The position numbers were made by a program, and so were the translations under genes. Source: an uncultured Tateyamaria sp. (GTDB lineage Bacteria > Pseudomonadota > Alphaproteobacteria > Rhodobacterales > Rhodobacteraceae). Taken from it: a stretch of 64,000 nucleotides of DNA. The notes below the pieces were generated by a model. That model did not search any database. It saw nothing but the letters and a program-made list of their open reading frames with translations, and had not been told where the DNA came from. Positions 30,903 to 47,588 of this stretch are shown piece after piece (position 1 is the stretch's first letter; each line of letters opens with the position of its first letter). The DNA lies in assembly GCF_947488715.1 (NCBI RefSeq), contig NZ_CANLAG010000001.1:62001-126000 (forward strand). Direction: 5' to 3'.

Positions 30903-30911
30903 GCTGGGGCG

Positions 30912-30940
30912 TATATAAGGAGGGTCAATTGACGCTGCAA
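30912..30940 (-). promoter_or_regulatory. Candidate dnaK promoter
   Basis: Reading the minus strand, TTGCAG (30940-30935) and TATATA (30917-30912) are spaced by 17 bases, with CTCCT just before the -10. This resembles a sigma-70 promoter and loosely a heat-shock (RpoH) -10. Transcription would start near 30905 and give a leader of about 100 bases. The sigma factor cannot be decided from the sequence. Confidence 0.45.
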
Positions 30941-30995
30941 CCATTGCGGCGGGGTCGAAAACAGCAAAAATTGCACATAACGGGGTGTTTGGGGC

Positions 30996-32293: not shown

Positions 32294-33118
32294 TTAGCGC
32301 CGTGCGTTCCAGCTGAGCGAGGCGTGACGGCGGGTATAGAATTCGCCCATCAGCCCGACCATCACAAGGATGATTCCGACCCACAGTGCGTATTCCCACG
32401 AGGAGTAGCGCGGATTGTAGTTGATAAAGGCATAGCCGCGCGACTGGTCGATGGTGTGGAACAGCGGGTTCCAGTCAAACATCGCCAGCATGAAGCTGGG
32501 CAATGTGTTGGCCACGAACATCTTGCCCGAGGCAATCATGTTCGCGCGCTGATAGATCTGGGTAAAGATCGAGACGAATGTCGGGAACCACGGTTTGATC
32601 GCCAGCAGGACCAGACCCAAGGCGCAGCCGGTGAACCACGCAATCAGCAACATCCCGAACGCGCCGAATGGGTCGTCGATTTCCAGCGGGGTAAAGGCCA
32701 CGTGGTAGATAAACAGGATCATAAACAGCGACAGAACCTGAACATAAAGCGCACCAAGCGCAGCAGATGAGATCGAGATGATCGTATTCATCGGCGCGTG
32801 CTGCATCATCGGGCTTGCCGGGCCTTCGGACCCGACGACGGCACCCAGCGATTTGGTGTGCGTCATATAAAGGAAGATGCCCGTCATGATGTAGACGAGG
32901 AAATCGCCACGGATCGCCGCACCGCGCAGCCCCAGTACAGAGAACATCACATAGAAGGCGCCGACAAAGATCACCGCCTGCAACATGTTCATCGCAATCG
33001 CGAGGAACGCGTTGTTATGCGTCTTGCGCACCGACCGGACGATCGAGTGGTAGATGACCTCGAACATGGCCATGGCGGTGCCAAAGCCGGACTGTGGCTT
33101 GCGGGTTGATTGAAACAT
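32294..33118 (-). CDS. ABC-2 type polysaccharide export permease (KpsM-like)
   Basis: The 274-residue membrane protein is like the permeases of capsule or O-antigen exporters. Six hydrophobic segments and a typical C-terminal end (MVGLMGEFYTRRHASLSW) are visible. I chose the ATG at 33118 (MFQSTRKPQS); an alternative start at 33199 would add 27 residues. Such permeases need an ATPase subunit (KpsT) and often periplasmic and outer-membrane partners, none of which is encoded beside it. The nearby glycosyltransferases suggest a surface glycan as substrate. Confidence 0.82.
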   Translation of the reverse strand: MFQSTRKPQSGFGTAMAMFEVIYHSIVRSVRKTHNNAFLAIAMNMLQAVIFVGAFYVMFSVLGLRGAAIRGDFLVYIMTGIFLYMTHTKSLGAVVGSEGPASPMMQHAPMNTIISISSAALGALYVQVLSLFMILFIYHVAFTPLEIDDPFGAFGMLLIAWFTGCALGLVLLAIKPWFPTFVSIFTQIYQRANMIASGKMFVANTLPSFMLAMFDWNPLFHTIDQSRGYAFINYNPRYSSWEYALWVGIILVMVGLMGEFYTRRHASLSWNARR

Positions 33119-33236
33119 GTGCGGTTCTGCCTCGACTGACGCGATGGTCGCAGGGAATTCTTGCCGTTCCGTTAGCACCACAGCATAAGGGGCGCGCATT
33201 GTGATTTCAACAAATGCCCGTGTGAGGAACGAATTT

Positions 33237-34034
33237 ATGAACTACGACGATTTGATCCCGGTGATCCGCAAACTGGCCCTCGAGGCTGGCGACAAGATCA
33301 TGGAGATTTATGACGGCGATGATTTTGAAGTAAAGTCCAAGTCCGATGACAGCCCGGTGACGGCAGCAGACGAAGCTGCGGATGCGCTGATTTCCGATGG
33401 TCTCCGCGCGGCGTTTCCCGATGTGATGCTGGTGACCGAAGAGCAGGCGGCGACCCATTCCACCACTGGCGACACGTTCCTGATCGTTGATCCGCTGGAT
33501 GGCACCAAGGAATTCGTCCACCGTCGTGGTGATTTCACCGTGAACATTGCATTGGTCGAAGGTGGTGTACCGACGCGCGGCGTTGTCTATGCACCGGCCA
33601 AGGGGCGCATGTTCTTTACCCTTGCAGATGGTCAATCCGTCGAGGAAAGCGGCGCGCTGGACAAAAACGAGATGGGTGAGGTTACACCAATCAACGTGGC
33701 TCAAAGCGACAACAGCGCGCTGATGGTTGTGGCATCAAAGTCGCACCGCGATCAGGCCACGGATGACTACATTAACAAGTACAACGTCAAAGACATGAAG
33801 AGCGCGGGTTCATCGCTCAAGTTCTGTTTGGTTGCGACGGGCGAGGCGGATATTTACCCGCGTGTTGGTCGCACAATGGAGTGGGACACCGCCGCGGGTC
33901 ACGCGGTGCTGACGGGTGCGGGCGGCAAAGTGGTGCGTTTCGACAACCATGAGACCCTGATGTACGGCAAAGATACCTATGCCAACCCGTTCTTTATCGC
34001 CTATGCGCCCGGTGTTGAGCTGAAGCCAGCCTGA
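33237..34034 (+). CDS. cysQ: 3'(2'),5'-bisphosphate nucleotidase CysQ
   Basis: The 265-residue enzyme of the inositol-monophosphatase superfamily hydrolyses PAP to AMP and phosphate. Metal-site motifs are VTEEQ, DPLDGTKEF and WDTAAGHAVLTGAGG. PAP is produced when sulfate is transferred from PAPS, by reduction or by sulfotransferases, and must be cleared. The ATG at 33237 gives the usual N-terminus (MNYDDLIPVIRKLALEAG) behind GAGGAACG. Its last base is shared with the kdsB start region, so the two are coupled. Confidence 0.93.
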   Translation: MNYDDLIPVIRKLALEAGDKIMEIYDGDDFEVKSKSDDSPVTAADEAADALISDGLRAAFPDVMLVTEEQAATHSTTGDTFLIVDPLDGTKEFVHRRGDFTVNIALVEGGVPTRGVVYAPAKGRMFFTLADGQSVEESGALDKNEMGEVTPINVAQSDNSALMVVASKSHRDQATDDYINKYNVKDMKSAGSSLKFCLVATGEADIYPRVGRTMEWDTAAGHAVLTGAGGKVVRFDNHETLMYGKDTYANPFFIAYAPGVELKPA

Positions 34035-34834
34035 TGTCTGTTCTGATCGTCATCCCAGCCCGCTATGCCTCGACCCGGTATCCGGGCAAACCGCTGGTGC
34101 CGTTGACCGGTGCAACCGGCGAGGCGCAGACCCTGATCGAGCGCAGCTGGCGTGCCGCCTGCGATGTGGCCGGGGTGGACCGTGTGGTTGTGGCGACGGA
34201 TGACGATCGTATCAAAGCGGCCTCTGAAGCCTTTGGCGCAGAGGTTGTGATGACGTCAGAGGCGTGCGGCAACGGAACAGAGCGTTGCGCCGAGGCGCAT
34301 GCCGCGCTGGGCGGTGGATATGATATTGTCGTAAACCTGCAAGGCGACGCGCCATTGACGCCCGCCTGGTTCATCGAAGGGCTGGTCGATGGTCTGCGCG
34401 CCGCGCCAGATGCCGAGATTGCGACTCCGGTCCTGCGGTGTGACGGGGCGACGCTGACCGGTTTTCTGGAGGACCGCAAAGCGGGACGCGTTGGCGGTAC
34501 GACCGCTGTGTTTGGTGCCGCTGGTCAGGCGCTCTATTTCTCCAAGGAAGTCATTCCGTACACCAATACCGACTATGCCCCGGATGCGGACACGCCAGTG
34601 TTTCACCATGTGGGTGTCTATGCCTATCGCCCAGATGCGCTTGCTGCCTATCCCGGCTGGCCCGTTGGGCCATTGGAGCAGTTGGAGGGGTTGGAACAGC
34701 TTCGGTTTCTGGAAAACGGGAGGCAGGTTCTGTGTGTCGAAGTGGCGGCGCGTGGCCGACAGTTCTGGGAACTGAACAACCCCGAAGATGTGCCAAAGAT
34801 TGAGCAAATGATGGCGGATATGGGTCTGGCATGA
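34034..34834 (+). CDS. kdsB: 3-deoxy-manno-octulosonate cytidylyltransferase
   Basis: The 266-residue enzyme activates Kdo as CMP-Kdo for lipid A-core assembly. Motifs are VIPARYASTRYPGKPL, VVVATDDDRI, NLQGDAPL and the late HHVGVYAYR. The length is normal (E. coli 248). The stop overlaps the next glycosyltransferase gene by four bases (ATGA). With kdsD and lptCAB downstream, this gives several steps of Kdo/LPS supply in one neighbourhood. Confidence 0.94.
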   Translation: MSVLIVIPARYASTRYPGKPLVPLTGATGEAQTLIERSWRAACDVAGVDRVVVATDDDRIKAASEAFGAEVVMTSEACGNGTERCAEAHAALGGGYDIVVNLQGDAPLTPAWFIEGLVDGLRAAPDAEIATPVLRCDGATLTGFLEDRKAGRVGGTTAVFGAAGQALYFSKEVIPYTNTDYAPDADTPVFHHVGVYAYRPDALAAYPGWPVGPLEQLEGLEQLRFLENGRQVLCVEVAARGRQFWELNNPEDVPKIEQMMADMGLA

Positions 34835-36063
34835 CCCAGCCACCTGTCAGCGTTGTGGTGGTGAGCCGCGACAGGCCTGCGGCATTGCGCCGATGCCTGA
34901 CCGCGCTGGCGCAGGTGCAGTATACGCCGTTCGAAGTGGTTGTGGTCGCCGACGTCAAAGGCCGTGCGACAGTTGCGGGATCGCCACTGGCCGGTTTGGT
35001 CAAAGTGGTCGAATTTGACCGGCCCAACATCTCTGAGGCGCGCAACCTTGGCATCAGCCACGCGGCGGGCGACATCGTTGCGTTCATTGACGATGACGCG
35101 GTGCCTGAGCCCAGTTGGCTGACGCACCTCGTGTCACCGGCCACCCGGCCACATGTCGGCGCCACGGGTGGATTTGTCCGGGGCCGGAACGGTATCTCGT
35201 TTCAGTGGCAGGCGCGCAGCATCGACGAGACCGGTGCAACGGAACACATGGAAATGAATCCGCGGCGGGCGACGATCCTGACACCCAAAGGTGCGCGTGG
35301 CACAAAAACCGAAGGCACCAATATGGCGGTGCGCCGGGACGTGTTGGTGGATCTCGAAGGGTTTGACCCCGGCTTTGCGTTTTATCTGGACGAAACGGAT
35401 CTGAACCTGCGGCTGGCGCGTGCGGGCCACGCCACGGCAATTGTTCCGATGGCCGAAGTGCATCACGGTTTCGCCGCCAGCCCCCGTCGCAGAGCGGATC
35501 GGGTGCCACGTGACCTGTTCGACATCGGTGCAAGCTGGGCAGTGTTCCAGCGCAAGTACCTGTCCGAGGCCGAGCGCCGCGATCATTGGCGTGCCATTCG
35601 TTTGTCCGAGCGCAAACGTGCGTTGGAACATATGGTGGCTGGGCGGCTCTTGCCACGCGATGTGCGGTATCTGCTGGGACGGCTTGATCAGGGATACAGC
35701 CAGGGTTTGATGCGCAAGCGCGGAGGCGCGCAGATTTCAGCCAGCCCGATTTTGCCCTATCAGCCGCTAGAGGTTGCACCGCGCAAGAGTGTGCTGATCT
35801 CTGGCCGGATCTGGCAGGCCAAACGCTTGCGCGCCGAAGCGGCCGAGAGGGTGAAAAACGGCGAGATTGTCACCTTGTTCCTGCTCTCGCCCACGTCTCT
35901 ATATCATCACGTGCGGTTCGACCCGCGTGGATTTTGGGAGCAAAGCGGTGGACTGTTTGGCAAGTCGAGCCGGGACGATGTGGTGTTTCGCCCTTATGGC
36001 TTTCGGGAAAGAGTGCTTAGAGAACGTGAACGTGTCGCGATTCAGCGTCTATTTTCCGCATAA
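34831..36063 (+). CDS. Glycosyltransferase family 2
   Basis: The 410-residue GT-A fold protein has an N-terminal GT2 domain: VSVVVVSRDRPAALRRCL, the DxD-like FIDDDAVP and GTNMAVRRDVLVDLEGFDPGFAFYLDETDLNLRL. A C-terminal part of about 130 residues rich in Arg and Lys has no family I recognise. It should transfer a sugar from a nucleotide donor in envelope glycan synthesis; donor and acceptor are unknown. Translation is coupled to kdsB, so a lipopolysaccharide-core or linked glycan is a fair guess. Confidence 0.85.
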   Translation: MTQPPVSVVVVSRDRPAALRRCLTALAQVQYTPFEVVVVADVKGRATVAGSPLAGLVKVVEFDRPNISEARNLGISHAAGDIVAFIDDDAVPEPSWLTHLVSPATRPHVGATGGFVRGRNGISFQWQARSIDETGATEHMEMNPRRATILTPKGARGTKTEGTNMAVRRDVLVDLEGFDPGFAFYLDETDLNLRLARAGHATAIVPMAEVHHGFAASPRRRADRVPRDLFDIGASWAVFQRKYLSEAERRDHWRAIRLSERKRALEHMVAGRLLPRDVRYLLGRLDQGYSQGLMRKRGGAQISASPILPYQPLEVAPRKSVLISGRIWQAKRLRAEAAERVKNGEIVTLFLLSPTSLYHHVRFDPRGFWEQSGGLFGKSSRDDVVFRPYGFRERVLRERERVAIQRLFSA

Positions 36064-36204
36064 ATTTGGCGCGTCTGCGCAACACTTTGCCGGTCAAGGC
36101 AGGAATTCAGGAATTGGACATTCTTTGGTCGCAGTCTAATAGTAAGGCGTTGCCAGAAAAGTTATTGCACCTGCAAACCAGATATCAAAACGAGGATGAC
36201 GCGT

Positions 36205-37098
36205 ATGCGTAAGAAGGTCACAAAAGCAATTTTCCCGGTCGCCGGGCTGGGTACGCGGTTTTTGCCAGCGACCAAGTCCGTGCCCAAGGAGATCATGACC
36301 CTCGTGGATCGCCCGTTGATCCAATACGCGATCGACGAAGCGCGCGCTGCGGGTATCAAGGAATTCATTTTTGTCACCTCGCGCGGCAAAGGTGCGCTTG
36401 AGGACTATTTTGACCATTCCCCCACGCTGGAGCAGGAGCTGCGCAAAAAGGGTAAAGACGAGCTGTTGGACGTGTTGAAAGACACCAATATGGACAGCGG
36501 CGCGATTGCCTATATCCGTCAGCACAAGGCGCTGGGTCTGGGGCACGCCGTTTGGTGCGCGCGTCGCCTGATCGCCAACGAACCCTTCGCGGTTATTCTG
36601 CCCGATGACGTGATTGCCGCCGAGAAACCCTGCTTGCAGCAGATGGTTGAGGCATTCGAGGAAACGCAAGGCAACATCGTTGCCGCGATGGAAGTTCCTC
36701 CGGAAAAAGCGTCGTCCTACGGTGTTCTCGACATCAAGGAAGACATGGGCCAGATGGTCGAAGTCAAAGGCATGGTTGAAAAGCCGCCTGCCGGTGAGGC
36801 ACCATCGAACCTGGCCGTGATTGGCCGTTATATTTTGACGCCGCAGGTGCTGCGCTCGCTTAACCAGATGAAGTCTGGCGCTGGTGGTGAAATCCAGCTG
36901 ACTGATGCCATCGCCCAAGAGATCGGTGGCGAAGACGGCGTTTACGGCTACCGTTTCCGTGGTCAGCGTTTTGACTGCGGGTCCAAGTCGGGTTTCCTTC
37001 AGGCGACTGTGTCCTTTGGTCTGGCGCGCGAAGAACTGCGTGACGACCTGTTGAGCTACATTCAGGATGTCGTTCAGATGGACAAAGCCGCAGAGTAA
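36205..37098 (+). CDS. galU: UTP-glucose-1-phosphate uridylyltransferase
   Basis: The 297-residue enzyme makes UDP-glucose. Motifs are FPVAGLGTRFLPATKSVPKE, the UTP-binding ILPDDVI, VVEKPP-like VEKPPAGEAPSNLAVIGRYI and the C-terminal RFDCGSKSGFLQA. I chose the ATG at 36205 because GAGG sits at a normal distance from it; an ATG at 36196 would add three residues but lies too close to that site. It feeds GalE 16 bases downstream and the glycosyltransferases around it. Confidence 0.95.
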   Translation: MRKKVTKAIFPVAGLGTRFLPATKSVPKEIMTLVDRPLIQYAIDEARAAGIKEFIFVTSRGKGALEDYFDHSPTLEQELRKKGKDELLDVLKDTNMDSGAIAYIRQHKALGLGHAVWCARRLIANEPFAVILPDDVIAAEKPCLQQMVEAFEETQGNIVAAMEVPPEKASSYGVLDIKEDMGQMVEVKGMVEKPPAGEAPSNLAVIGRYILTPQVLRSLNQMKSGAGGEIQLTDAIAQEIGGEDGVYGYRFRGQRFDCGSKSGFLQATVSFGLAREELRDDLLSYIQDVVQMDKAAE

Positions 37099-37113
37099 AC
37101 CAGGGATCACATT

Positions 37114-38097
37114 GTGAAGCATGTATTGGTAACGGGTGGTGCGGGTTATATCGGCTCGCACGCCTGCAAGGCCCTGCGCGCTGCCGGGTTTGTTCCGGTG
37201 ACGTACGACAATCTCGAGACCGGGTGGAAGGATGCCGTCAAGTTCGGCCCGTTTGAACAGGGCGATCTGATGGACCGCGCTCGCCTCGACGCTGTCTTTG
37301 CCACGTACAAGCCGGTTGCTGTCATGCACTTTGCCGCCCTCAGCCAGGTTGGCGAGAGCATGAAGGAGCCGGGCCGGTACTGGCGCAACAATGTTCTGGG
37401 TTCACTGACTCTGATCGAGGCGGCTGTGGCGGCTGGGTGCATGGATTTTGTGTTCTCGTCGACCTGTGCGACCTATGGCGATCAGGACAACGTGGTTCTG
37501 GACGAAAACAGCGAACAGCACCCCATCAACGCCTATGGCGCGTCCAAACGTGCAATCGAGGATGTGCTTGTAGATTTTGAGGCGGCCTATGGGCTGCGCC
37601 ACGTCATCTTTCGGTACTTCAATGTTGCGGGCGCGGATCCCGATGGCGAGGTGGGCGAGTTCCACCAGCCAGAGACGCATTTGATCCCGCTGATGCTGGA
37701 TGCGATTGCGGGCAAGCGTGACGCGCTGACGGTCTATGGCACCGACTACGAGACGCCGGACGGCACCTGTATCCGTGACTACGTGCATGTGTGCGATCTG
37801 GTGGATGCGCATGTTCTGGGCCTCAAGTGGCTGCAGGACGGTAAAGGCAGCCGTGTGTTCAACCTTGGCACCGGGTCCGGGTTTTCGGTGCGCGAGGTCA
37901 TCGACCATTCGCGGTCGGTTACCAATCAGGCGGTTCCATATGTTGACGGCGCACGTCGCGCAGGTGACTGTACCAAGCTGGTGTCAGGATCGACGCGGGC
38001 AGAAACCGAATTGGGGTGGACACCCACACGGTCGACGCTTGAGACGATGATCACCGATGCATGGAGATGGCACCAAACTGGCCACTACGACACATAA
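37114..38097 (+). CDS. galE: UDP-glucose 4-epimerase
   Basis: The 327-residue extended short-chain dehydrogenase interconverts UDP-glucose and UDP-galactose (some members also the N-acetyl forms). The NAD-binding motif is GGAGYIGSH, the catalytic Ser/Tyr/Lys are in FSSTCATYG and YGASK, and the late PDGTCIRDYVHVCDL is typical. The start is GTG. With galU it supplies UDP-glucose and UDP-galactose for the local glycan. Its 3' end overlaps the next gene by 41 bases. Confidence 0.95.
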   Translation: MKHVLVTGGAGYIGSHACKALRAAGFVPVTYDNLETGWKDAVKFGPFEQGDLMDRARLDAVFATYKPVAVMHFAALSQVGESMKEPGRYWRNNVLGSLTLIEAAVAAGCMDFVFSSTCATYGDQDNVVLDENSEQHPINAYGASKRAIEDVLVDFEAAYGLRHVIFRYFNVAGADPDGEVGEFHQPETHLIPLMLDAIAGKRDALTVYGTDYETPDGTCIRDYVHVCDLVDAHVLGLKWLQDGKGSRVFNLGTGSGFSVREVIDHSRSVTNQAVPYVDGARRAGDCTKLVSGSTRAETELGWTPTRSTLETMITDAWRWHQTGHYDT

Positions 38098-39256
38098 TCC
38101 GCCCCCCGCGCGCCTGCTGGATCTGACTCGCCTGATGCGGCGGGTGGGCAAGGTCTTGACCGGCGTGGATCGTGTCGAATGGGCCTATCTGCGGGCCCTG
38201 ATGGCCGATCCCGTACCTGTCTACGGGCTTATCCGTGCCCAACTTGGTTACATCCTACTTGATCCGGATGGCGTGGCGTCGTTGGCGCCGTCGCTGGGCG
38301 GTCCTGAACCCGATACATCAGCGGATGCGCAGCGGCGTCGGACATGGCGCAAGGCGCGGCGTCTATCCATCAGCCGGGTTCCCCCCGCCCTGTTGGGCCG
38401 CATGTTGCGCGGCGGGCTGCCGCGCGGTGTCGCCTACCTGAATGTGGGGCATTCGAACCTGACGGACCGGGTCCTTGGCACACTCAAGGCGATCGACGCG
38501 CATATCAGCGTTTTGGTGCATGACGTCATTCCATTGGATTTTCCCGACTATCAACGCGACGGATCAGTCGCGCCATTCGCGGCAATGATTGAGCGTGTTG
38601 GCACACAGGCCGATCTGTTGATCTATAATTCGGCCGATACGCAGACCCGGACCGAAGCACGCATGGCTGCGCCGCCACCTGGGATTGTTGCTCATTTGGG
38701 AACAGACTTGGTGCCATCCGCGCCTGATGATTTGCCCCAAGGCATGCCGCCAAGGGCCCCGTTTTTTGTCTGTATCGGCACAATTGAACCGCGCAAGAAC
38801 CACGCGTTTTTGTTGGATATGTGGGAACAGATGGGTGCAGACGCACCGACATTGGTGATTGCAGGTAGCCGCGGATGGAAGAACGAAGACGTGTTTTCCC
38901 GTCTCGATGCCTTGCCCGAAGGTGGTTCGGTCCGTGAGGTTGCAGGGCTGAGTGATGGTGCCTTGGCCGCGTTGGTCGAGCAATCACAAGGCGTTTTGTT
39001 CCCCTCTCATGCAGAGGGATTTGGCCTGCCTGCAACAGAGGCAGCATCGCGCGGTGTGCCCGTGATCGTGAATGATCTTGAGGTGTTCCGCGAAATCTTG
39101 GGCGATATTCCAGTTTACGCAAGCGTTTCAGATCGTTATCTGTGGATAAACAAGATCAAAGAGTTGGCCGAGGCAGACAAGCAAACGCCCAAACAACCGC
39201 AGTACCATGCCCCCACCTGGGACACGCATTTCAAGACTGTGTTAAGGTTGACCTGA
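38057..39256 (+). CDS. Glycosyltransferase family 4 (GT-B)
   Basis: The 399-residue retaining GT-B enzyme resembles mannosyl- and rhamnosyltransferases of polysaccharide clusters. The C-terminal half has the donor-site elements FFVCIGTIEPRKNHAFLL and the E-x7-E block HAEGFGLPATEAASRGVPVI. The N-terminal half carries HDVIPLDFP. The start inside galE is the first ATG in frame; a start slightly downstream would shorten the 41-base overlap. Donor sugar and acceptor are unknown. Confidence 0.84.
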   Translation: MHGDGTKLATTTHNPPPARLLDLTRLMRRVGKVLTGVDRVEWAYLRALMADPVPVYGLIRAQLGYILLDPDGVASLAPSLGGPEPDTSADAQRRRTWRKARRLSISRVPPALLGRMLRGGLPRGVAYLNVGHSNLTDRVLGTLKAIDAHISVLVHDVIPLDFPDYQRDGSVAPFAAMIERVGTQADLLIYNSADTQTRTEARMAAPPPGIVAHLGTDLVPSAPDDLPQGMPPRAPFFVCIGTIEPRKNHAFLLDMWEQMGADAPTLVIAGSRGWKNEDVFSRLDALPEGGSVREVAGLSDGALAALVEQSQGVLFPSHAEGFGLPATEAASRGVPVIVNDLEVFREILGDIPVYASVSDRYLWINKIKELAEADKQTPKQPQYHAPTWDTHFKTVLRLT

Positions 39257-39305
39257 TAGGCGCAACGCTGGTCGTATCACGCGGCAGGTAGAGGAACGGA
39301 GTTCG

Positions 39306-40316
39306 GTGGGCGCTTGGCAGTCATATAGGCTGAGGCTTCAGCGCAAGCGGTGGCGCATTCGTGCGGTCCGCAAGCGTCGCGAATTGAAACGTATTACCAA
39401 TCGCACTGACCAGATCCGCCCCAGCGATTTGCTGTGTTTTTCCACTCAGAGAAACGAGGCGGTACGCCTGCCCTATTTCCTCGACTACTACCGAGAGATG
39501 GGCATCAACCATTTCCTGATCGTGGACAATGACAGTACGGATGGTTCTGTCGATTACCTTGCCTCGCAGCCTGATGTGTCGGTCTGGTCCACTTCGGGCA
39601 GTTACAAGCGCTCGCGATTTGGTGTCGACTGGCTGAACTGGCTACAAATGAAATATGGGCATGGCCATTGGAACCTGGTGGTCGATCCCGATGAGTTCCT
39701 CGTCTATCCGTTTTGCGATACCCGGCCATTGCGTGCGCTCACCGATTGGCTGGACGCGTCGTCGATCAAATCGTTCTCTGCCATGCTGCTCGATATGTAT
39801 CCCAAGGGGCGGTTGGACGAACAGCCGTACCAGTCGGGGCAGAACCCGCTCGAGATTGCCAGTTGGTTTGACAGCGGGAATTATACGATTTCGCGCAACC
39901 ACACCTTTGGAAACCTGTGGATACAGGGTGGCCCCCGTGCGCGCGTGTTCTTTCCCGACACGCCGGAACGTGCGCCTGCGCTCAACAAGATCCCGTTGGT
40001 CAAATGGGACCGCCGCTATGCCTATGTGAGTTCGACGCATATGTTGCTGCCGCGTGGTTTGAACCAGGTCTACGACGAATGGGGTGGCGAAAAGGCGTCG
40101 GGCGTCCTGTTGCACGCCAAGTTTCTGGATACCTTCAACACCAAGGCCGCCGAAGAGTTGCAGCGCAAGCAGCACTATGCCGCTAGCGTGGAATACAAAG
40201 CCTACGCCGATACGTTGCGGGATGACCCGGACCTGTGGTGCAAATGGTCCGAAAAATACATCAACTGGCGTCAGCTTGAGATTTTGGGCCTGATGTCGAA
40301 AGGGAACTGGGCGTGA
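39306..40316 (+). CDS. Glycosyltransferase family 2 (PF13704-like)
   Basis: The 336-residue protein is related to the 'glycosyl transferase family 2_4' group. It has a basic N-terminal stretch, then STQRNEAVRLPYFLDYYREMGINHFLIVDNDSTDGS and the DxD motif VVDPDEFLVY. The translation start is GTG with GAGG a few bases ahead. Its stop overlaps the GT14 gene start (GTGA), so the two enzymes are made together. The substrate is unknown; the company suggests cell-surface glycan. Confidence 0.83.
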   Translation: MGAWQSYRLRLQRKRWRIRAVRKRRELKRITNRTDQIRPSDLLCFSTQRNEAVRLPYFLDYYREMGINHFLIVDNDSTDGSVDYLASQPDVSVWSTSGSYKRSRFGVDWLNWLQMKYGHGHWNLVVDPDEFLVYPFCDTRPLRALTDWLDASSIKSFSAMLLDMYPKGRLDEQPYQSGQNPLEIASWFDSGNYTISRNHTFGNLWIQGGPRARVFFPDTPERAPALNKIPLVKWDRRYAYVSSTHMLLPRGLNQVYDEWGGEKASGVLLHAKFLDTFNTKAAEELQRKQHYAASVEYKAYADTLRDDPDLWCKWSEKYINWRQLEILGLMSKGNWA

Positions 40317-42010
40317 GTGTCGGTATTGTCATGCTGGTGCACAACGCCTTTGACCGCGCCGAACAGGCCGCGCGTCACTGGGCGGCGGGCGGTTGTCCGG
40401 TTGTGATCCACGTGGACGTCGCCGTGCCGCGCAAGGTTTATGCCGCCTTTGCCCGCGCACTGGCGGACGTGCCGGCGATCCGGTTTTGCAAACGCTACCG
40501 CTGTGAATGGGGAACGTGGGGCATCGTCGCGGCCAGCCAGACGGCGTCGGAAATGATGCTGGCCCAGTTTCCGGATGTGCGGCATGTCTATCTGGCTTCG
40601 GGGTCCTGTTTGCCACTGCGCCCCGTCGAAGAGCTGATTGAATATCTCGAAGAGCGCCCGCGCACCGATTTTATCGAAAGCGCTACAACCGCCGATGTTC
40701 CTTGGACTGTCGGGGGGCTGGATCAGGAACGGTTCACCCTGCGTTTTCCGTTCTCGTGGAAGCGACAGCGGCTGCTTTTTGATCGCTATGTCGAGTTGCA
40801 GCGCCGCTTTAAGATGAAGCGCAAGATACCCGATGGTCTGGTCCCCCATATGGGCAGCCAATGGTGGTGCCTGACCCGTCAGACGCTGTCGGCGATCCTT
40901 CAGGGGCCGGATCGCAAGGAATATGACACGTATTTCCGGCATGTCTGGATTCCGGACGAAAGCTATTTCCAGACGCTTGCGCGACAGTATTCCACCAAGA
41001 TCGAAAGCCGGTCGTTGACCCTGTCCAAGTTCGATTTTCAAGGCAAACCGCACATTTTCTACGACGATCACCTGCAACTGTTGCGGCGGTCCGACTGTTT
41101 CGTTGCGCGCAAGATTTGGCCCCATGCCAACCGACTGTACGAGGCGTTTCTGACCGACCCCGCCGGTGCGATGAAGCGGACAGAGCCGAACCCCGGCAAG
41201 ATTGACCGCATTTTCGCCAAAGCTGTCGAGCGTCGGACGCGCGGGCGGCCCGGCCTCTATATGCAGAGCCGGTTTCCGAACGAAGACTGGGAAAACGGCG
41301 TCACTGCCGCGCCCTATTCGATGTTTCAGGGGTTCACCGAGATTTTCGAGAATTTCGAACCGTGGCTGTCCAAAGCGACAGGCGCGCGCGTGCATGGGCA
41401 TTTGTTTCACCCCGACCGGGTCGAGTTTGCCGAAGGGCAAACAACGCTGAATGGCGCGCTCAGCGACAGCGCGCGGGCACGGGACTATAACGCCAATGCG
41501 TTCCTGACCAACCTGATCTGGAACACACGCGGCGAACGTCAGTGTTTCCAGTTTGGGCCAGAGGGCAATCAATCGGTCAACTGGCGCATCGCCAAGGATC
41601 CAAATGCGCAGGTTTCGGTGATTTCAGGTGCGTGGGCGGTGCCATTGTTCCGGTCCAATATGAACTTTCTCGATATCCGCAAGCTGGCCGCGCAGTTGCA
41701 GAAAATCGAAAGCGACCATCTGGATGTTCTGCGGTCACCCTATGTGAAGGCGCGCGTGCGTATCTGGACCATGGCGGAATTTATCGAGGCACCGATGGAA
41801 CCGTTGCAGGGTATTCTGGACGAGATTGGTCAAACGCAAGCGCGGCGTCTGTCCGAAGTGCCTAAGATGGTTGATTTGACGGGGTTCGGGCAATTCCTGC
41901 AGAATCTCAAGAACCAGGGCATGCATCCCTATCTGATGGGCGATTTTCCTGTGGCGCTGGGTCCTGAACCCGCACATGATCGTCCGCGCAAACCCTATCT
42001 GGTGCGGTAA
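40313..42010 (+). CDS. Beta-1,6-N-acetylglucosaminyltransferase-like protein (GT14) with DUF5927-type C-terminus
   Basis: The 565-residue protein starts with a Core-2/I-branching (GT14) domain, about 1-270: VMLVHNAFDRAEQAARHW, YLASGSCLPLRP, the DFIES block and SQWWCLTRQTL. A second region of about 280 residues resembles the DUF5927 domain found with this enzyme in Roseobacter genomes. GT14 enzymes add beta-1,6-linked GlcNAc or related sugars in eukaryotes; the bacterial product is uncertain. The start is GTG. It is followed after 6 bases by the sulfotransferase. Confidence 0.84.
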   Translation: MSVGIVMLVHNAFDRAEQAARHWAAGGCPVVIHVDVAVPRKVYAAFARALADVPAIRFCKRYRCEWGTWGIVAASQTASEMMLAQFPDVRHVYLASGSCLPLRPVEELIEYLEERPRTDFIESATTADVPWTVGGLDQERFTLRFPFSWKRQRLLFDRYVELQRRFKMKRKIPDGLVPHMGSQWWCLTRQTLSAILQGPDRKEYDTYFRHVWIPDESYFQTLARQYSTKIESRSLTLSKFDFQGKPHIFYDDHLQLLRRSDCFVARKIWPHANRLYEAFLTDPAGAMKRTEPNPGKIDRIFAKAVERRTRGRPGLYMQSRFPNEDWENGVTAAPYSMFQGFTEIFENFEPWLSKATGARVHGHLFHPDRVEFAEGQTTLNGALSDSARARDYNANAFLTNLIWNTRGERQCFQFGPEGNQSVNWRIAKDPNAQVSVISGAWAVPLFRSNMNFLDIRKLAAQLQKIESDHLDVLRSPYVKARVRIWTMAEFIEAPMEPLQGILDEIGQTQARRLSEVPKMVDLTGFGQFLQNLKNQGMHPYLMGDFPVALGPEPAHDRPRKPYLVR

Positions 42011-42016
42011 CCTGTC

Positions 42017-43444
42017 ATGGCCCAATTCGACTATTTCGTTGTGTTCGCAGAGATGCGGACAGGCTCCAATTTTCTGGAAACCAATCTGAATGCGTTTGAT
42101 GGCATCGCTTGTCATGGCGAGGCGTTCAATCCGCATTTTATCGGCTATCCCAATCGAGACGATGCGCTGGGCGTCACGCAGGCCGCGCGCGATGCAGACC
42201 CCAAGCAACTCTTGCGCGAAGTTCGAAAAGCGCCGGGGTTGAACGGGTTTCGTTACTTTCACGACCATGACCCGCGTATTCTCGATCGCATTCTGGATGA
42301 CCCCAAATGCGCCAAGATCGTACTGACCCGGAACCCCGTGGACAGCTATGTGTCGTGGAAAATTGCGCAGGCCACTGGCCAGTGGAAGCTGACGGATGCC
42401 AAAGCGCGCAAGGACGGCAAAGCCGAGTTCGTCGCCGATGAATTTGCCGAACACTTGTCCGCCTTGCAGAATTTTCAGGTCACGCTGCTCAACCGTCTGC
42501 AAACCAGTGGGCAGACCGCGTTTTACGTTGCTTACGAAGATTTGCAGAGCCTCGATGTCATGAACGGTTTGGCCGCCTGGTTGGGCAGTGACGCCCGGCT
42601 TGAGGCATTGGACAAAAGCCTGAAGGTGCAGAACCCAAGCGCGCTGTCCGACAAGGTCAGCAATTTTGGTCAAATGACTGAGGCCCTGTCCGGTCTGGAC
42701 AGTTTCAATCTGACCCGCACACCCAATTTCGAACCACGGCGCGGGGCGGCTGTGCCGACCTATCACGCAAGCGAGACGGCACCGCTTTTGTATCTGCCTG
42801 TGCGGGGTGGGCCGTCTGACCCTGTGTTGCAGTGGTTGCGTGATCTAGACAAAAGCGCGGATGCTGCGCCTGCGTCCAAGCTGTCTCAGAACGATTTGCG
42901 CGAATGGATGCGCGACCACACGGGCCACCGCAGTTTCTCCGTGTTGCGGCACCCGTTGGTGCGGGCGCACGCCGTGTTTTGCCACCGAATTCTGAACATC
43001 GGTCAGGGTGGATATGGCGGGATCAGGACGACGCTGACCAAACGGTACAAGATGCCGCTCCCTACTGATCCGGCCGCCAGCGATTATGACAAGGTGGCGC
43101 ACCGCACGGCGTTTGCAGCGTTCCTTGGATTCCTCAAAACCAACCTTGCGGGTCAGACAGGCGTGCGGGTGGACCCGGATTGGGCCAGCCAATCAAAGAT
43201 CATCGAAGGATTCGCAGAATTTGTGCTGCCGGACAGGTTGATGCGCCAAGACACCGTGGCGCATGAGCTTGCGGAACTTGCGGTGGCTGTGGGTATTGAC
43301 GCGCCGCCTGCTTTGAAGGGCCCGAGTGCGGACGCACCTTATGCGCTGGCTGATATCTATGATGCAGAAATCGAGGCCTTGGCGCGCGCGGCCTATGGGC
43401 GGGATTATCTGATGTTTGGTTTCAGCGACTGGACGCCGACCTGA
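42017..43444 (+). CDS. Sulfotransferase with two PAPS-type regions ('NodH' family)
   Basis: The 475-residue protein begins with a 5'-phosphosulfate-binding loop (AEMRTGSNFLE, R14-E21) and a 3'-phosphate-type segment (VLTRNPVDSYVSWK), as in NodH/Stf0-type sulfotransferases. Residues 300-420 contain a second sulfotransferase-like segment (SVLRHPLVRAHAVFCHRIL, around 308-326), which resembles the 3'-phosphate-binding motif of carbohydrate sulfotransferases. The protein should transfer sulfate from PAPS to a glycan or lipid. The nearby cysQ would remove the PAP by-product. It converges with ptsN, with stop codons abutting. Confidence 0.8.
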   Translation: MAQFDYFVVFAEMRTGSNFLETNLNAFDGIACHGEAFNPHFIGYPNRDDALGVTQAARDADPKQLLREVRKAPGLNGFRYFHDHDPRILDRILDDPKCAKIVLTRNPVDSYVSWKIAQATGQWKLTDAKARKDGKAEFVADEFAEHLSALQNFQVTLLNRLQTSGQTAFYVAYEDLQSLDVMNGLAAWLGSDARLEALDKSLKVQNPSALSDKVSNFGQMTEALSGLDSFNLTRTPNFEPRRGAAVPTYHASETAPLLYLPVRGGPSDPVLQWLRDLDKSADAAPASKLSQNDLREWMRDHTGHRSFSVLRHPLVRAHAVFCHRILNIGQGGYGGIRTTLTKRYKMPLPTDPAASDYDKVAHRTAFAAFLGFLKTNLAGQTGVRVDPDWASQSKIIEGFAEFVLPDRLMRQDTVAHELAELAVAVGIDAPPALKGPSADAPYALADIYDAEIEALARAAYGRDYLMFGFSDWTPT

Positions 43445-43909
43445 TCACGCCGCTTGTGCGGGTTTCGCCTCGTTCAGAATGGCGAACAGGGTGGAGGCAT
43501 CAGGATTGGCGCGCAGTTTCGTACACACGGATGGATCGCGCAGGGTACGAGACACCAGTGCCAGCGCCTTGAGATGTTCAACGCCTGCTTCTTCGGGTGC
43601 GAACAGGGCAAAGGCGATGTCGACCGGTTGACGATCCACGGCATCGAAATCAATCGGGCGGTCCAGCAGGACAAAAGCACCCATGACATGTTCGATACCA
43701 TCCAAACGCGCGTGCGGCAGGGCGACGCCGTGTCCAACACCTGTCGGGCCAAGCGCCTCACGTGCCAGCAATGCCTCGACAACCAGACCGGCATGCACGT
43801 CATAGGCGCCCTGCACGACATCACCGATCTCGTGCAAAAGGCGTTTTTTTGACGAAGCGGAGGTCACGACCTTGACCGCCTCGGGTTTCAGGAGAGTTCC
43901 AAAATCCAT
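43445..43909 (-). CDS. ptsN: PTS IIA-like nitrogen-regulatory protein
   Basis: The 154-residue EIIA-Ntr protein takes phosphate from the PTS-Ntr chain on H66 (GVALPHARLD). It regulates potassium, carbon and nitrogen metabolism by protein contacts. Conserved parts are LLHEIGDVV, EALLAREALGPTGVGHGVALPHA and FALFAPEEAGVEHLKALALVSR. It follows hpf with a gap of 39 bases on the minus strand, as in many proteobacteria. Confidence 0.95.
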   Translation of the reverse strand: MDFGTLLKPEAVKVVTSASSKKRLLHEIGDVVQGAYDVHAGLVVEALLAREALGPTGVGHGVALPHARLDGIEHVMGAFVLLDRPIDFDAVDRQPVDIAFALFAPEEAGVEHLKALALVSRTLRDPSVCTKLRANPDASTLFAILNEAKPAQAA

Positions 43910-43948
43910 TTTGCTCGCACTGTCAGCGCGTCGATGCGCGCCGATCCC

Positions 43949-44512
43949 TTACGGGTCAATCCAGCCAATATTACCATCATCCCGACGGTATACGACGTTT
44001 AGCCCGTCTTTTCCCTCATTTCGGAACACCAGTACAGGGGCGCCCGCCAATTCCATTTGCATCACTGCCTCGCCAACGGAGAGAGACGGAATCTTGGTTT
44101 CCATCTCGGCCACGATCATTGGCTTCAAGCTTTCTGGTTCCGAGTCGTCCGAACCGTCTTCAGAGGCGAGGATATACGAGGCCGCGCCCGAGAGTTCAAC
44201 TGGCTGCGCGCGCTCCTTGTGGTGGTCTTTGAGACGCCGCTTGTAACGGCGCAACTGCTTTTCCATTTTCTCGGAACATCCGTCAAAAGCAGCATATATT
44301 TCAGTGGCATGCGCCTTGGCCTGGGCCGTCAAGCCGGTGGACAGGTGCACGGTCGCCTCGCAGACGAATTCGTGTGCGGACTTGGAAAACACCACATTCG
44401 CGTTGGTGGGACGTTCGGCGTATTTCTGCACAACGCCGCTAAGTTCATCCCGAACGTGAGTTTGCAGGGCGTCGCCGATGTCGATCTGTTTGCCACTGAT
44501 TTGGTATTGCAT
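43949..44512 (-). CDS. hpf: Ribosome hibernation promoting factor, long form
   Basis: The 187-residue protein has the N-terminal S30AE/YfiA fold (MQYQISGKQIDIGDALQTHV, VSAHATEIYAAFD-like region near 85-100). A linker leads to the long-form C-terminal dimerisation domain (KIPSLSVGEAVMQMELAGAPVLVFRN, DGNIGWIDP). Long HPF joins ribosomes into inactive 100S dimers in stationary phase. The ATG at 44512 was chosen because AAGGAGAAAG lies just upstream; the frame extends 15 codons further. Confidence 0.95.
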   Translation of the reverse strand: MQYQISGKQIDIGDALQTHVRDELSGVVQKYAERPTNANVVFSKSAHEFVCEATVHLSTGLTAQAKAHATEIYAAFDGCSEKMEKQLRRYKRRLKDHHKERAQPVELSGAASYILASEDGSDDSEPESLKPMIVAEMETKIPSLSVGEAVMQMELAGAPVLVFRNEGKDGLNVVYRRDDGNIGWIDP

Positions 44513-44742
44513 GCTTTCTCCTTCATTTAGGTCCGCGCCGACAGCAAGACGGGCCATAGGTGTGGCCGGAAACAGGTTGTCAGATAAACGGAACGGGCTG
44601 GCCTGTAGCCTGACCGGACATGCGCCCAGAGAGTGGGCGAATAAGTCTGAGGATCAGGGACAGCGTCAAAGCCATACACCCATTGCACGCCAAAAGTGCG
44701 GTAGCTGTCAATGAAAAGCGGCGAAAATGGTTACGCAGTCCG
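44513..44742 (-). other. 230-base gap between lptB and hpf, no gene seen
   Basis: This is where many proteobacteria carry rpoN (lptB-rpoN-hpf-ptsN). Here no reading frame of useful length or sigma-54-like sequence is visible. The region probably holds the hpf promoter; I found no convincing -35/-10 pair. Confidence 0.6.
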
Positions 44743-45501
44743 TTAGCCGATGCGAAAATTCTCGCCGAGATACACGCGGCGGACATTCTCGTTTTGCACG
44801 ACATCTTCGGGCGTTCCAGACATCAGAACCTGCCCGTCATGCAGGATATAGGCGCGGTCGACGATATCGAGTGTTTCGCGGACATTGTGGTCGGTGATCA
44901 GCACACCCAGCCCACGGTTTTTGAGGTCAGCGACGAGGCTGCGGATGTCTCCGACCGAGATGGGATCGACGCCGGCAAACGGTTCGTCCAGCAGAAGATA
45001 GCGCGGATTGGCGGCCAGTGCGCGGGCGATTTCCACGCGCCGACGCTCACCACCCGACAGGGCCAGAGCCGGGGCGCGGCGCATATGTTCGATCGAAAAC
45101 TCGCTCAGCAGTTCTTCGAGGCGTTCACGGCGTTTGTGCCGGTCCTTTTCGGTGATATCGAGAATGGCGAGGATGTTGTCTTGGACACTGAGCCCCCGAA
45201 AGATGCTCATTTCCTGCGGCAGATAACCGATGCCCATCTGGGCCCGGCGATACATCGGTAGCGCGGTCACATCTGTGCCATCCAACACGACCTTGCCGCC
45301 CTCTGGTGTGACCAGCCCGGCCACGCTGTAAAACGTCGTGGTCTTGCCCGACCCGTTTGGACCAAGCAGCGCGACAACCTCGCCCCGGTTCAGTTCCATG
45401 GAAAAGTCGCGGATCACCAGTTTCTTGCGGTAGGATTTGCGCAAATGCGAAATCTTGAGACCGGACGAGCCCCCCGCCACTTTCAGGTCGGGCTTGGACA
45501 T
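44743..45501 (-). CDS. lptB: LPS export ABC transporter ATP-binding protein
   Basis: The 252-residue ATPase powers LptFG extraction of lipopolysaccharide from the inner membrane. Walker A is GPNGSGKTT, the Q-loop [11 protein letters not shown], the signature [15 protein letters not shown] and Walker [13 protein letters not shown]. The H-loop is DHNVRETL. The first base pair of its start codon overlaps the lptA stop, giving tight coupling. The LptF and LptG permeases are not in this window. Confidence 0.96.
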
Positions 45502-45989
45502 CAGTTGTTTCCGGTTTGAAGGATCGTCTTGACCCGGCCTTGCATGCGCGCGGTGCCGTCATCCAGATTGACGGTCATGCGGTCAGCGCTCAGCGCGCTT
45601 TGGCCCTGTGTCATCAAAACATCGCCGGTCATGACGATCACACCGTCATCAATGTCATAGTCGGCGCGTTGCGATTCGGCAGCGTCCGGCCCGGACACGA
45701 GGGTCACGCCGCCCGTTGCTTCGAGCCGTTGAATACCTTGCGAATCCTGCCTGTAGATCACCAGAACCCGCGCCGCCGAAAGGCGCATCGCACCCTGACC
45801 GATGATGACGTTACCCGTGAAAATCGCAGCGCCAGTTGCCTGATCCACGCTCAGTTCATCCGCGCTGACCTCAACCGGGGCAGAGGTATCTTGCTGGATC
45901 GCGCCAAAGGCCACCTTGGTTCCTTGGGCAATGGCTGGGGTCGTCAAGCCCAACAGGGCGACGCATGCGATGGCACGAAAAAAGGTCAC
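45501..45989 (-). CDS. lptA: LPS transport periplasmic protein LptA
   Basis: The 162-residue protein has a signal peptide ([22 protein letters not shown]) and a repeated beta-strand OstA-like domain ([34 protein letters not shown]). LptA polymerises into the periplasmic bridge that carries LPS to the outer membrane. It overlaps lptB by one base and follows lptC with a 9-base gap. Confidence 0.92.
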
Positions 45990-45998
45990 GGGGTCTTG

Positions 45999-46595
45999 TC
46001 ACTCTTCCAAATTCTTGGGGTCGTATATCAGTTTCACCCCGTTTGTGAAAATCAAATGGGCGTTTTCATTGTCCCCGACCCGTTGCAGTTGCATCTGGCC
46101 GGCGTTCAGCACGCCAAGTGGACCCGATCCCATGACAGGTCCGGGCGATTCGACAGCCAAGGTGTCAAAGTCGGTATGCAGCGCGTCAGAGGTCAGTTTG
46201 TACCCGGTTGACGTGGTGATCACCACGTTGCCGCGCAACGACGATGTGCCCTGCATCATGTCGAATGCGCCCTTGTCTGAAAACAGGACAATGCGTGTGC
46301 CAGAGGACAGATCAATCTGTGCCGACAGGTCGCTTGCCTCGTTGTTGGTGCCAGCGCGGGTGGCCATGGTTCCGGCGGAGACCGTGACCCGGTCGCCAGC
46401 GTCGGTCGTACCGGAAAAGAAAGGCGCGGTGATTTGTTGCCCTTTCAGGCGCTCCGCGATTTCCGTCTCGGCAAAGGGGACGGCGGCCATGGGGTCGATG
46501 TTGCGCGACAGCAGGAACAGCGTGGACAGCAGGCCAAGCGCCGTCAAAGGCAGCAGCACCTTAAGCCAGGCGACCAGTCGCGAATAGCGGTCCAT
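45999..46595 (-). CDS. lptC: LPS export protein LptC
   Basis: The 198-residue bitopic inner-membrane protein has an N-terminal anchor (VAWLKVLLPLTALGLLSTLFLL, about 8-29) and a periplasmic OstA-like beta domain (RIVLFSDKGAFDMMQGTSSLRGNVVI). LptC passes LPS from LptB2FG to LptA. Position and topology, more than sequence identity, make the assignment; the family is poorly conserved. It follows kdsD by 24 bases. Confidence 0.88.
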   Translation of the reverse strand: MDRYSRLVAWLKVLLPLTALGLLSTLFLLSRNIDPMAAVPFAETEIAERLKGQQITAPFFSGTTDAGDRVTVSAGTMATRAGTNNEASDLSAQIDLSSGTRIVLFSDKGAFDMMQGTSSLRGNVVITTSTGYKLTSDALHTDFDTLAVESPGPVMGSGPLGVLNAGQMQLQRVGDNENAHLIFTNGVKLIYDPKNLEE

Positions 46596-46619
46596 GCCTT
46601 GTTCCCCGGCTATAGTGGC

Positions 46620-47588
46620 CTAGCCCAGCCCCACCCGAAGGCAGTCGTGGATATGCAGGATACCTTGCGGAACGGCTGGCCCGTCTGCGGGCACTGCAAA
46701 GACACAGGTGATCTTGCGTTGGTTCATAAGGGCGACCGCCTCTTCGGCCAACGCCCCGGTGTGAATGGTAGTGGGAGAGGTGGTCATCACATCGGCTGCT
46801 GTCAACCCAAGCAGCCCGTCCATGTGCCGCCGCAAGTCACCATCGGTGATGATCCCCACCAGAATGCCCTGATCCCCGGTCACACCGACCACGCCCAGGC
46901 TCTTGCGGCTGATTTCCAACAAGGCATCTGACATTGGCGTGCTGAGGGTGACGAGCGGGATGGCCGACCCCTTGTGCATCAGATCGCCGACACGGGACAG
47001 TTGCGCACCCAATTTGCCGCCGGGGTGGAAGTCGCGAAAGTGTTCGGCGGTGAATGACCTGTGTTCCATCAACGCGACCGCCAGTGCGTCGCCAAGCGCA
47101 AGCGTCATGGTGGTCGATGTGGTCGGGACGACACCAGTGCCGCAGGCTTCGCCCAGGTCGGGCAGTTGCAGAACCACGTCACACTGACTGCCAAGGCTGC
47201 TGTTCGGGGCCTTGGTAATCCCGATCAACGGTATCTCAAACCGGCGTGAAAAGGCGATGAGGTTGGCCAGTTCCGGCGCTTCGCCACCGTTCGAGATGGC
47301 CAGCACAACGTCGTTGCGGGTGATCATACCCAGATCGCCATGGCTCGCCTCGGCAGGGTGGACGAACTGGGCGGGTGTGCCAGTGCTGGCCAGTGTCGCG
47401 GCAACCTTGCGTGCGATGTGCCCTGACTTGCCGATCCCGGTCACGATGACCCGGCCCGATGTGTTCAACAGCAGGTCAATCGCCGCGCGAAAACTGGCGT
47501 CGATGCTATCGGCCAGAACCACAAGCGCGTCAGCTTCGGTGCGGATGACCCGCCTTGCCGTGTCGATAAAGGGGGTCTTGTCCGTCAT
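46620..47588 (-). CDS. kdsD: Arabinose-5-phosphate isomerase
   Basis: The 322-residue protein converts ribulose-5-phosphate to arabinose-5-phosphate, the first step of Kdo synthesis. It has a SIS domain (VIVTGIGKSGHIARKVAATLASTG, HGDLGMI, FHPGGKLG) and two CBS domains in the C-terminal half (GDLMHKGSAIPLV, GIITDGDLRRHM, TSPTTI). Length and layout match KdsD/KpsF. It overlaps the nrnC gene by four bases (ATGA) and leads into lptCAB. Confidence 0.94.
   Translation of the reverse strand: MTDKTPFIDTARRVIRTEADALVVLADSIDASFRAAIDLLLNTSGRVIVTGIGKSGHIARKVAATLASTGTPAQFVHPAEASHGDLGMITRNDVVLAISNGGEAPELANLIAFSRRFEIPLIGITKAPNSSLGSQCDVVLQLPDLGEACGTGVVPTTSTTMTLALGDALAVALMEHRSFTAEHFRDFHPGGKLGAQLSRVGDLMHKGSAIPLVTLSTPMSDALLEISRKSLGVVGVTGDQGILVGIITDGDLRRHMDGLLGLTAADVMTTSPTTIHTGALAEEAVALMNQRKITCVFAVPADGPAVPQGILHIHDCLRVGLG

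Follow-up and report, generated by a model that had tools for sequence, protein, structure and literature searches.

The 64,000-nucleotide stretch of DNA analyzed here (called the window below), which sits within the 4.13 Mb genome of an uncultured Tateyamaria sp. (the host genome, G000), carries nine genes clustered between positions 33,237 and 43,444, all on the plus strand, along with a divergent permease gene. We propose that this locus is responsible for the synthesis of a sulfated surface polysaccharide (a capsule or an O-polysaccharide), whose assembly would take place in the cytoplasm and whose export would rely on an ATP-binding cassette (ABC) transporter; the probability we assign to this reading is about 0.6. 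What is new here is a gene module found almost throughout the host's family, a predicted tandem of an active and a degenerate sulfotransferase domain, and a likely identity for the domain DUF5927. The nine genes named in a preliminary description of the window were all recovered by open reading frame and profile searches; this description had missed the permease and the two-domain build of the protein listed as a sulfotransferase.

The last protein encoded in the cluster (475 residues) consists of two domains, N (residues 1-245) and C (residues 246-475). The motif MRTGSN (residues 13-18) and the residues E35, R105, and S113 of the N domain were found to be conserved in 27/27 diverse homologues. 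MRTGSN, R105, and S113 presumably form the 5' phosphosulfate loop and the 3' phosphate site for 3'-phosphoadenosine 5'-phosphosulfate (PAPS), and we take the residue equivalent to E35 to be catalytic in Stf0. The solved structure that best matches the N domain profile (A4) is that of NodH, a lipopolysaccharide (LPS) sulfotransferase (9vki, 6e-14), in which the loop is aligned and an acidic residue corresponds to E35. In the predicted structure of the two-domain protein (mean predicted local distance difference test, pLDDT, 82.7; predicted template modelling score, pTM, 0.54), the N domain can be superimposed on Stf0 (1tex_D) with a Z score of 12.5 and a root-mean-square deviation (rmsd) of 3.7 over 193 aligned residues. 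The 50 structure matches listed for this model are sulfotransferases, mostly by title, and the few without telling titles (such as Teg12, Teg14, and StaL) are presumably sulfotransferases as well; since these searches used whole models, mainly the first domain was tested in this way. The N half of the window protein scored under the cut-off of the Pfam family Sulfotransfer_1. With E up to 0.1, Sulfotransfer_3 was matched by 20/27 N domains, Sulfotransfer_1 by 18/27, and Stf0 by 1/27, and none of the 27 matched an NCBIfam model. By its motifs and its predicted fold, the N domain fits a PAPS-dependent sulfotransferase.

The match of the window protein to Sulfotransfer_2 (26.7 bits, cut-off 22) covers residues 290-470, and matches of the C domain to this family (E up to 0.1) were obtained in 18/26 homologues. 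No conserved phosphate-binding loop was detected at residues 262-269 in the 26 homologues, and R311, which precedes an invariant HP, is present in only 18/26, H312, P313, and R316 being present in 26/26. Comparing the C and N domain profiles gave a probability of 48% over 43 columns, with a score of 35.4 versus at most 24.5 in 100 shuffles, and a search of the PDB with the C domain profile gave a single match at E 1. The intact motifs of the N domain and the absence of a conserved loop in the C domain suggest that the former is likely to be the enzyme and the latter a degenerate sulfotransferase relative. The window protein resembles the Stf0/NodH-type carbohydrate and LPS sulfotransferases in the fold, the loop, and the acidic residue of its N domain, but differs from them in that a degenerate sulfotransferase-like domain follows this one in the same protein.

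The protein encoded directly upstream is a fusion (model: mean pLDDT 74.6, pTM 0.49). Residues 1-260 belong to the GT14 (Branch) glycosyltransferases, according to both the Pfam cut-off and the predicted fold: the model of this half matches C2GnT-L (2gak_A; Z 21.2, rmsd 2.9, 242 residues aligned) and xylosyltransferase 1 structures (Z 17.9-18.9), from which the window protein differs by its C-terminal DUF5927 domain. All the matches obtained in whole-protein structure searches were taken by the GT14 half. We infer the assignment of the DUF5927 half from the neighboring sulfotransferase. The order and spacing of strands and helices in the DUF5927 model agree with those in the N domain model. 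With shallow profiles (effective number of sequences about 3.6) and a pair picked after the models had been inspected, hhalign aligned DUF5927 (28 diverse sequences) with the N domain (27 sequences) at a probability of 69% (65% with query and target swapped), an E value of 4.3e-5 (one comparison), and a score of 41 over 86 columns. The alignment has the register predicted by the models, in that an invariant HG, an invariant R, and a conserved D before the fourth strand coincide. Control scores were at most 25.5 in 100 column shuffles, 21.4 with the reversed target, and at most 19.9 with 11 sets of other genes from the loci (one of which is a single sequence). Earlier shallow profiles, made from 48-50 close sequences, had given only 3-5%. 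Comparison of DUF5927 with the C domain profile yielded nothing (0.4%), and the PDB search with the DUF5927 profile yielded nothing relevant, with a single chance-level match (E 0.95).

In DUF5927, the phosphate loop is replaced by xGFxxLF, and the position of E35 is occupied in the 28 sequences by H (21), R (2), S (2), N (2), or Y (1), and never by glutamate. Position 438, located at the end of the fourth strand and near that of R105, is S or T in 23/28, R in 3, and K in 1. DUF5927 is therefore called degenerate, since most residues of the PAPS site are missing from it: judging from profiles and models, it is probably a third, degenerate sulfotransferase-like domain, and its sequence largely lacks the PAPS motifs expected of an active enzyme. 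The members with R (L101, L102, and L104) or K (L103) at the end of the fourth strand are among the most divergent, the others having S, T, or A; these basic residues are perhaps a trace of an ancestral 3' phosphate site.

The organization of the locus was compared in 80 named loci fetched via the sulfotransferase, which are the best 80 of 459 relatives; among these 80, the nearest homologues are from Tateyamaria (72-84% identity). In the 66 loci carrying at least 9.4 kb upstream, the genes encoding the PF13704 glycosyltransferase (GT) and GT14-DUF5927 were always found (66/66), and galU (64/66), cysQ (63/66), and the divergent permease gene (63/66) almost always. Less constant are galE (55/66), kdsB (47/66), the first GT2 gene (44/66), and the GT4 gene (43/66), the position of the last being taken by a second PF13704-type GT in a number of loci. 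These frequencies indicate that the constant part of the locus is formed by its last three genes and that the gathering of the genes in one locus is not due to chance. Wherever a named locus extends at least 1.8 kb upstream (74 loci), GT14-DUF5927 lies directly upstream of the sulfotransferase (74/74), the ends of the alignments being 7-287 bp apart (less than 150 bp in 73/74). In one Roseovarius locus (L045), only the trio PF13704 GT, GT14-DUF5927, and sulfotransferase was seen within 10 kb on either side.

The distribution of the module was studied in 292 genomes of the order and in a class sample of 289 genomes, 235 of which passed the quality filter. DUF5927 matches were identified in 283/292 genomes of the order, all belonging to one family, and in 4/289 of the class sample, all from the host's family, which is represented there by just these four; the class sample includes 285 genomes without a match, and the 20 listed belong to other families of the same class. 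The sulfotransferase was matched in 279/292 genomes, none of which lacks a DUF5927 match, whereas four carry DUF5927 without the sulfotransferase (G059, G221, G239, and a remnant in G075) and nine carry neither. DUF5927 without the sulfotransferase, but never the reverse, is what is expected if the latter is a late modifier. These counts include G198 among the 279 by a weak match only (3.6e-13), its DUF5927 locus (L100) having no such gene, and G075 among the 283 only via a weak match (1e-8) to a 65-residue remnant; G117 is counted as carrying DUF5927 although the gene is split, and G140, G286, and G291 show two DUF5927 matches.

Fifty-one genomes were hand-picked from the 292: the host, 14 with no or weak sulfotransferase or DUF5927 matches, and 36 others spread over many genera. 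A strong permease match was found in 41/41 of those having a DUF5927 gene and in 0/10 of the others. Likewise, the PF13704 GT was found in 41/41 (E 1.7e-133 or better), and no match as strong occurs in the other 10. Weaker PF13704-type matches in G060 (1.6e-11), G227 (6.1e-23), and G075 (3.7e-7, with two stops) and permease-like matches in G094, G110, G227, and G232 (1.7e-7 to 4.7e-4) were not counted. It follows from these patterns of joint presence and absence that the permease, the PF13704 GT, and GT14-DUF5927 constitute the unit that is gained and lost together, the sulfotransferase being its nearly constant but dispensable last member. The four genes are a signature of the family, present nearly family-wide. 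Three loci devoid of the module (L089, L093, and L095) show a cysQ-kdsB-galU stub beside ptsN-hpf-lptB-lptA-lptC. The module profiles (E 1e-3) matched nothing in loci L087-L095, where other sulfotransferase types were not sought. In G075, cysQ-kdsB-galU-galE and the ptsN-hpf-lpt block now lie about 9 kb apart, with other sequence between them, as if the module had decayed and been replaced; the DUF5927 remnant (65 residues; L099, 11455-11649) adjoins a PF13704-type remnant. In G117 (L112, 6950-8347), the GT14-DUF5927 gene is split into short frames, which may reflect either a pseudogene or an assembly error. Among 72,556 plasmid records, three partial sulfotransferase matches were found (36-46% of the query, 25-31% identity), none of them full-length, and DUF5927 had no match at 1e-5.

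The window permease taken alone gave no significant Pfam match, but ABC2_membrane was matched by 13 of 26 permease homologues. The family profile (A6) matched the transport permeases 6oih and 6m96, which we take to be Wzm, at about 1e-4, and 8tsh_C, the KpsM subunit of KpsMT-KpsE, at 1.6e-11. By this profile evidence, the permease would be of the KpsM type associated with group 2 capsules. According to sections of PMC11041684, 8TSH is the KpsMT-KpsE complex, and capsules of this kind have a linker of 3-deoxy-D-manno-oct-2-ulosonic acid (Kdo). A search for exporter ATPases in the host genome returned 42 matches, two of which are clearly of the exporter type. At 804-807 kb of contig C1 (L141), a KpsT-like ATPase gene, closest to the KpsT of 8tsi/8tsh (7.4e-39), was identified together with a KpsE-family gene (TIGR01010, 185.9 bits, 1.1e-54, under the cut-off of 437.5; 8tsh_E, 8.4e-28). 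Both lie directly beside kdsA and a phosphohexomutase gene, and no capsule-type permease was detected among the neighboring frames scanned. Contig C3 (95.7-100.3 kb) carries Capsule_synth (KpsC/KpsS-type) and KpsD-like genes; Capsule_synth exceeds its Pfam cut-off at 95.8-100 kb, and the NCBIfam scores of both types are below the cut-offs (225 of 600 in the case of the KpsS model).

The presence of these KpsT-, KpsE-, KpsC/S-, and KpsD-like genes elsewhere in the genome makes it plausible that a dispersed KpsMT/E/D system might serve the window permease. Likeness to the Kdo-linked group 2 capsule systems is found in the KpsM-type permease, in the proximity of kdsB (kpsU) and kdsD (kpsF), and in these distant genes. 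Unlike those systems, the one considered here is scattered, with the permease, the ATPase/KpsE, and the KpsC/S-type genes in three places and not in one contiguous capsule locus; in addition, the window permease has no ATPase gene next to it, and the window locus includes the two-domain sulfotransferase and the GT14-DUF5927 fusion and occurs nearly family-wide. We regard it as working like an ABC-dependent capsule system, yet do not class it as a group 2 capsule locus. As regards contig C14 (56 kb; L134, L135, and L142), one of its three Sulfotransfer_3 matches lies in an 847-residue frame, and a TagH/Wzt-like ATPase and a KpsM-like permease are encoded on the same contig, which is a candidate for a second, separate sulfated-glycan locus by its gene content.

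The preliminary description had predicted a sulfated glycan, partly on the grounds that a busy sulfotransferase would need CysQ to remove 3'-phosphoadenosine 5'-phosphate (PAP). The invariant PAPS motifs, the exporter-type permease, and the co-inheritance support a sulfated, exported glycan, but the argument drawn from CysQ does not hold as it was stated. CysQ was found in 51/51 picked genomes, including the 10 without the module, as was adenosine 5'-phosphosulfate (APS) kinase, host included, which rules out CysQ as proof of the pathway. In the nine genomes lacking both DUF5927 and the sulfotransferase, cysQ is beside kdsB in 7/9, and galU is near cysQ in 6/9. That CysQ is kept without the module and is tied to kdsB disfavors it as specific evidence: it is a general PAP phosphatase here and not proof of a glycan pathway. 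In one module-less genome (G085; L088, 8000-9300), cysQ adjoins an APS kinase gene and not kdsB. Part of the argument survives, since APS kinase is present and the single CysH-type gene found in the host genome carries CC...CxxC, which we take to be the mark of APS reductases. With an APS reductase, sulfate assimilation needs no PAPS, and PAP arises from sulfotransferases and holo-acyl carrier protein synthase. The CysH motif suggests that sulfate assimilation need not make PAP in this strain, and that sulfotransferases are the likely source of it.

From the computed gene content, predicted folds, motifs, and co-inheritance, we infer the sulfation, the acceptor, the export of the product, and the scaffold roles as follows. 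GalU and GalE would provide UDP-glucose and UDP-galactose. The part of the glycan made by the variable GT2 and GT4 enzymes might be lineage-specific, and that added by the constant PF13704 enzyme and by the GT14 domain might be a core or a branch that is shared. Sulfate would be transferred from PAPS to the glycan by the N domain before export; the degenerate C domain and the DUF5927 tail may bind the acceptor or keep the two enzymes in contact. Export of the product would then proceed through the KpsM-type permease, with an ATPase encoded elsewhere, PAP being cleared by CysQ as a general housekeeping enzyme. It is also conceivable, although rather doubtful, that the GT14-pseudo-sulfotransferase (DUF5927) fusion docks with the protein carrying the active and pseudo sulfotransferase domains in tandem, forming a single complex in which sulfation would be coupled to the addition of sugars before ABC export, DUF5927 being the docking or acceptor-holding part. 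If this were so, the logic would be that of animal glycosaminoglycan synthesis, in which elongation and sulfation are coupled, and the unit would be its bacterial counterpart.

Many members of the host's family are marine. If the proposed function is correct, one sulfated surface glycan is common to nearly the whole of a large bacterial family, which would have a bearing on the adsorption of phages and gene transfer agents, on algal attachment, and on how much of the marine sulfated polysaccharide is of bacterial origin. For DUF5927, a domain of unknown function confined in the class sample to the host's family, it would also provide an identity that can be tested. Two sulfated O-polysaccharides, known by their chemistry, have reportedly been obtained from Poseidonocella pacifica and P. 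sedimentorum (works cited in PMC7281560 and PMC9912281), which belong, like Tateyamaria, to the Roseobacteraceae in the NCBI taxonomy. No literature on the module genes was found in open-licence papers, a scope that leaves out most subscription journals. A link to the capsule receptor genes of the Rhodobacter capsulatus gene transfer agent (rcc01081-01086 and rcc01932) was considered and rejected; PMC10218006 has "sulf" a single time in its main text, in kanamycin sulfate, and never "glycosyl".

Several observations weigh against a sulfated polysaccharide exported by this permease. CysQ does not track the module, and no ATPase gene is located beside the permease. A second capsule-type permease, on contig C14, matches KpsM on its own at 7.6e-24, and with two capsule-type permeases and two such ATPases in the genome, more than one pairing is possible. 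Four Sulfotransfer_3 matches occur elsewhere in the host genome, three of them on contig C14, so that the sulfated products of the strain need not come from the window locus. In G117, an intact sulfotransferase stands beside the broken GT14-DUF5927 gene. The acceptor, lastly, could be sugars of the LPS core and not a polymer: the enzyme would then sulfate the LPS core or lipid-linked sugars, in an LPS-core locus beside lptABC and kdsD. The adjoining lptB-lptA-lptC-kdsD genes (of the 78 named loci reaching at least 3.5 kb downstream, 72 have lptB, 71 lptA, and 71 lptC), kdsB within the cluster, and the naming of NodH, the best solved match to the N domain, as an LPS sulfotransferase all favor this explanation. 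However, a separate polysaccharide-export permease would not be needed for an LPS core that is exported along with lipid A, and the permease gene accompanies the glycosyltransferase genes in both inheritance and loss (41/41 versus 0/10); moreover, the lpt block remains in L089, L093, and L095 after loss of the module. We therefore consider it unlikely.

That the glycan is unsulfated, the sulfotransferase being a mere neighbor acting on a small molecule or a protein, seems quite improbable. The sulfotransferase is dispensable for the rest of the module, as the four genomes of 292 keeping DUF5927 without it indicate (in a fifth, G198, the match is weak and off the locus), but GT14-DUF5927 precedes it directly in 74/74 loci, the trio of L045 included, and no genome of the 292 has the sulfotransferase without a DUF5927 match. 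Least of all do we favor a mere clustering of housekeeping envelope genes (cysQ, kdsB, galU, and galE) without a common product: the cysQ-kdsB pair does persist without the module in 7/9 genomes, and G072 has a cysQ locus (L118) devoid of DUF5927 and the sulfotransferase, both of which occur elsewhere in that genome, but this explanation fits cysQ, kdsB, and galU only, whereas the permease, the PF13704 GT, GT14-DUF5927, and, nearly so, the sulfotransferase co-vary.

The coordinates of the genes and domains proposed to take part in making the sulfated polysaccharide, and those of the flanking genes, are given in Table 1.

Table 1. Genes and domains of the locus and its flanks, with positions in the window.
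Feature	Position	Strand	Basis
Divergent ABC-2 type polysaccharide-export permease, predicted KpsM/Wzm type	32294..33199	-	Profile match to KpsM; homologues align from ~33115
cysQ, 3'(2'),5'-bisphosphate nucleotidase	33237..34034	+	TIGR01331 (NCBIfam equivalog), 270.3 bits, above cut-off 228.8
kdsB/kpsU, CMP-Kdo synthetase	34034..34834	+	Subfamily model NF003950, 352.6 bits, cut-off 234
GT2 glycosyltransferase, variable position	34831..36063	+	Pfam PF13641/PF00535
galU, UTP-glucose-1-phosphate uridylyltransferase	36196..37098	+	TIGR01099, 338 bits, cut-off 326.8
galE, UDP-glucose 4-epimerase	37114..38097	+	TIGR01179, 412.5 bits, cut-off 262.3
GT4 glycosyltransferase, variable position	38057..39256	+	Pfam PF00534
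PF13704 GT2-type glycosyltransferase, constant part of module	39306..40316	+	Pfam PF13704
GT14 (Core-2/I-branching type) domain, residues 1-260	40313..41092	+	PF02485 (Branch), 59.3 bits, cut-off 23.4
DUF5927 domain, residues 261-565, fused to GT14	41093..42010	+	PF19349; predicted degenerate sulfotransferase-like
Sulfotransferase N domain, Stf0/NodH-like, PAPS motifs intact	42017..42751	+	Predicted fold and profile
Sulfotransferase-like C domain, motifs degenerate	42752..43444	+	Sulfotransfer_2
Flank: ptsN and hpf, facing the cluster	43445..44557	-	PTS_EIIA_2; Ribosomal_S30AE
Flank: ABC ATPase (lptB by position), lptA, lptC, kdsD/kpsF	44743..47588	-	Profile matches

Genes of the cluster abut or overlap at 34034, 34831-34834, 38057-38097, and 40313-40316, and the widest intergenic gap (132 bp) is located 5' of galU. 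The KdsB sequence scored slightly under the cut-off of the kdsB equivalog model TIGR00466 (145.6 versus 155.2 bits). Between positions 32900 and 44000, promoter-like sites occur at chance level (4 versus 4.0 expected, standard deviation 2.3), and the 16 terminator-like sites (11.9 expected, standard deviation 3.8) are uninformative. Elsewhere in the window, a plus-strand frame antisense to dnaK (29672-31018) matches the Pfam family NAD-GH (PF10712, 370 bits); this match most likely arises as an antisense artefact, dnaK being a conserved gene, and does not mark a glutamate dehydrogenase. A 517-residue protein encoded on the plus strand at 25294-26844 joins a PBP-superfamily domain (PBP_like_2) to an OmpA domain.

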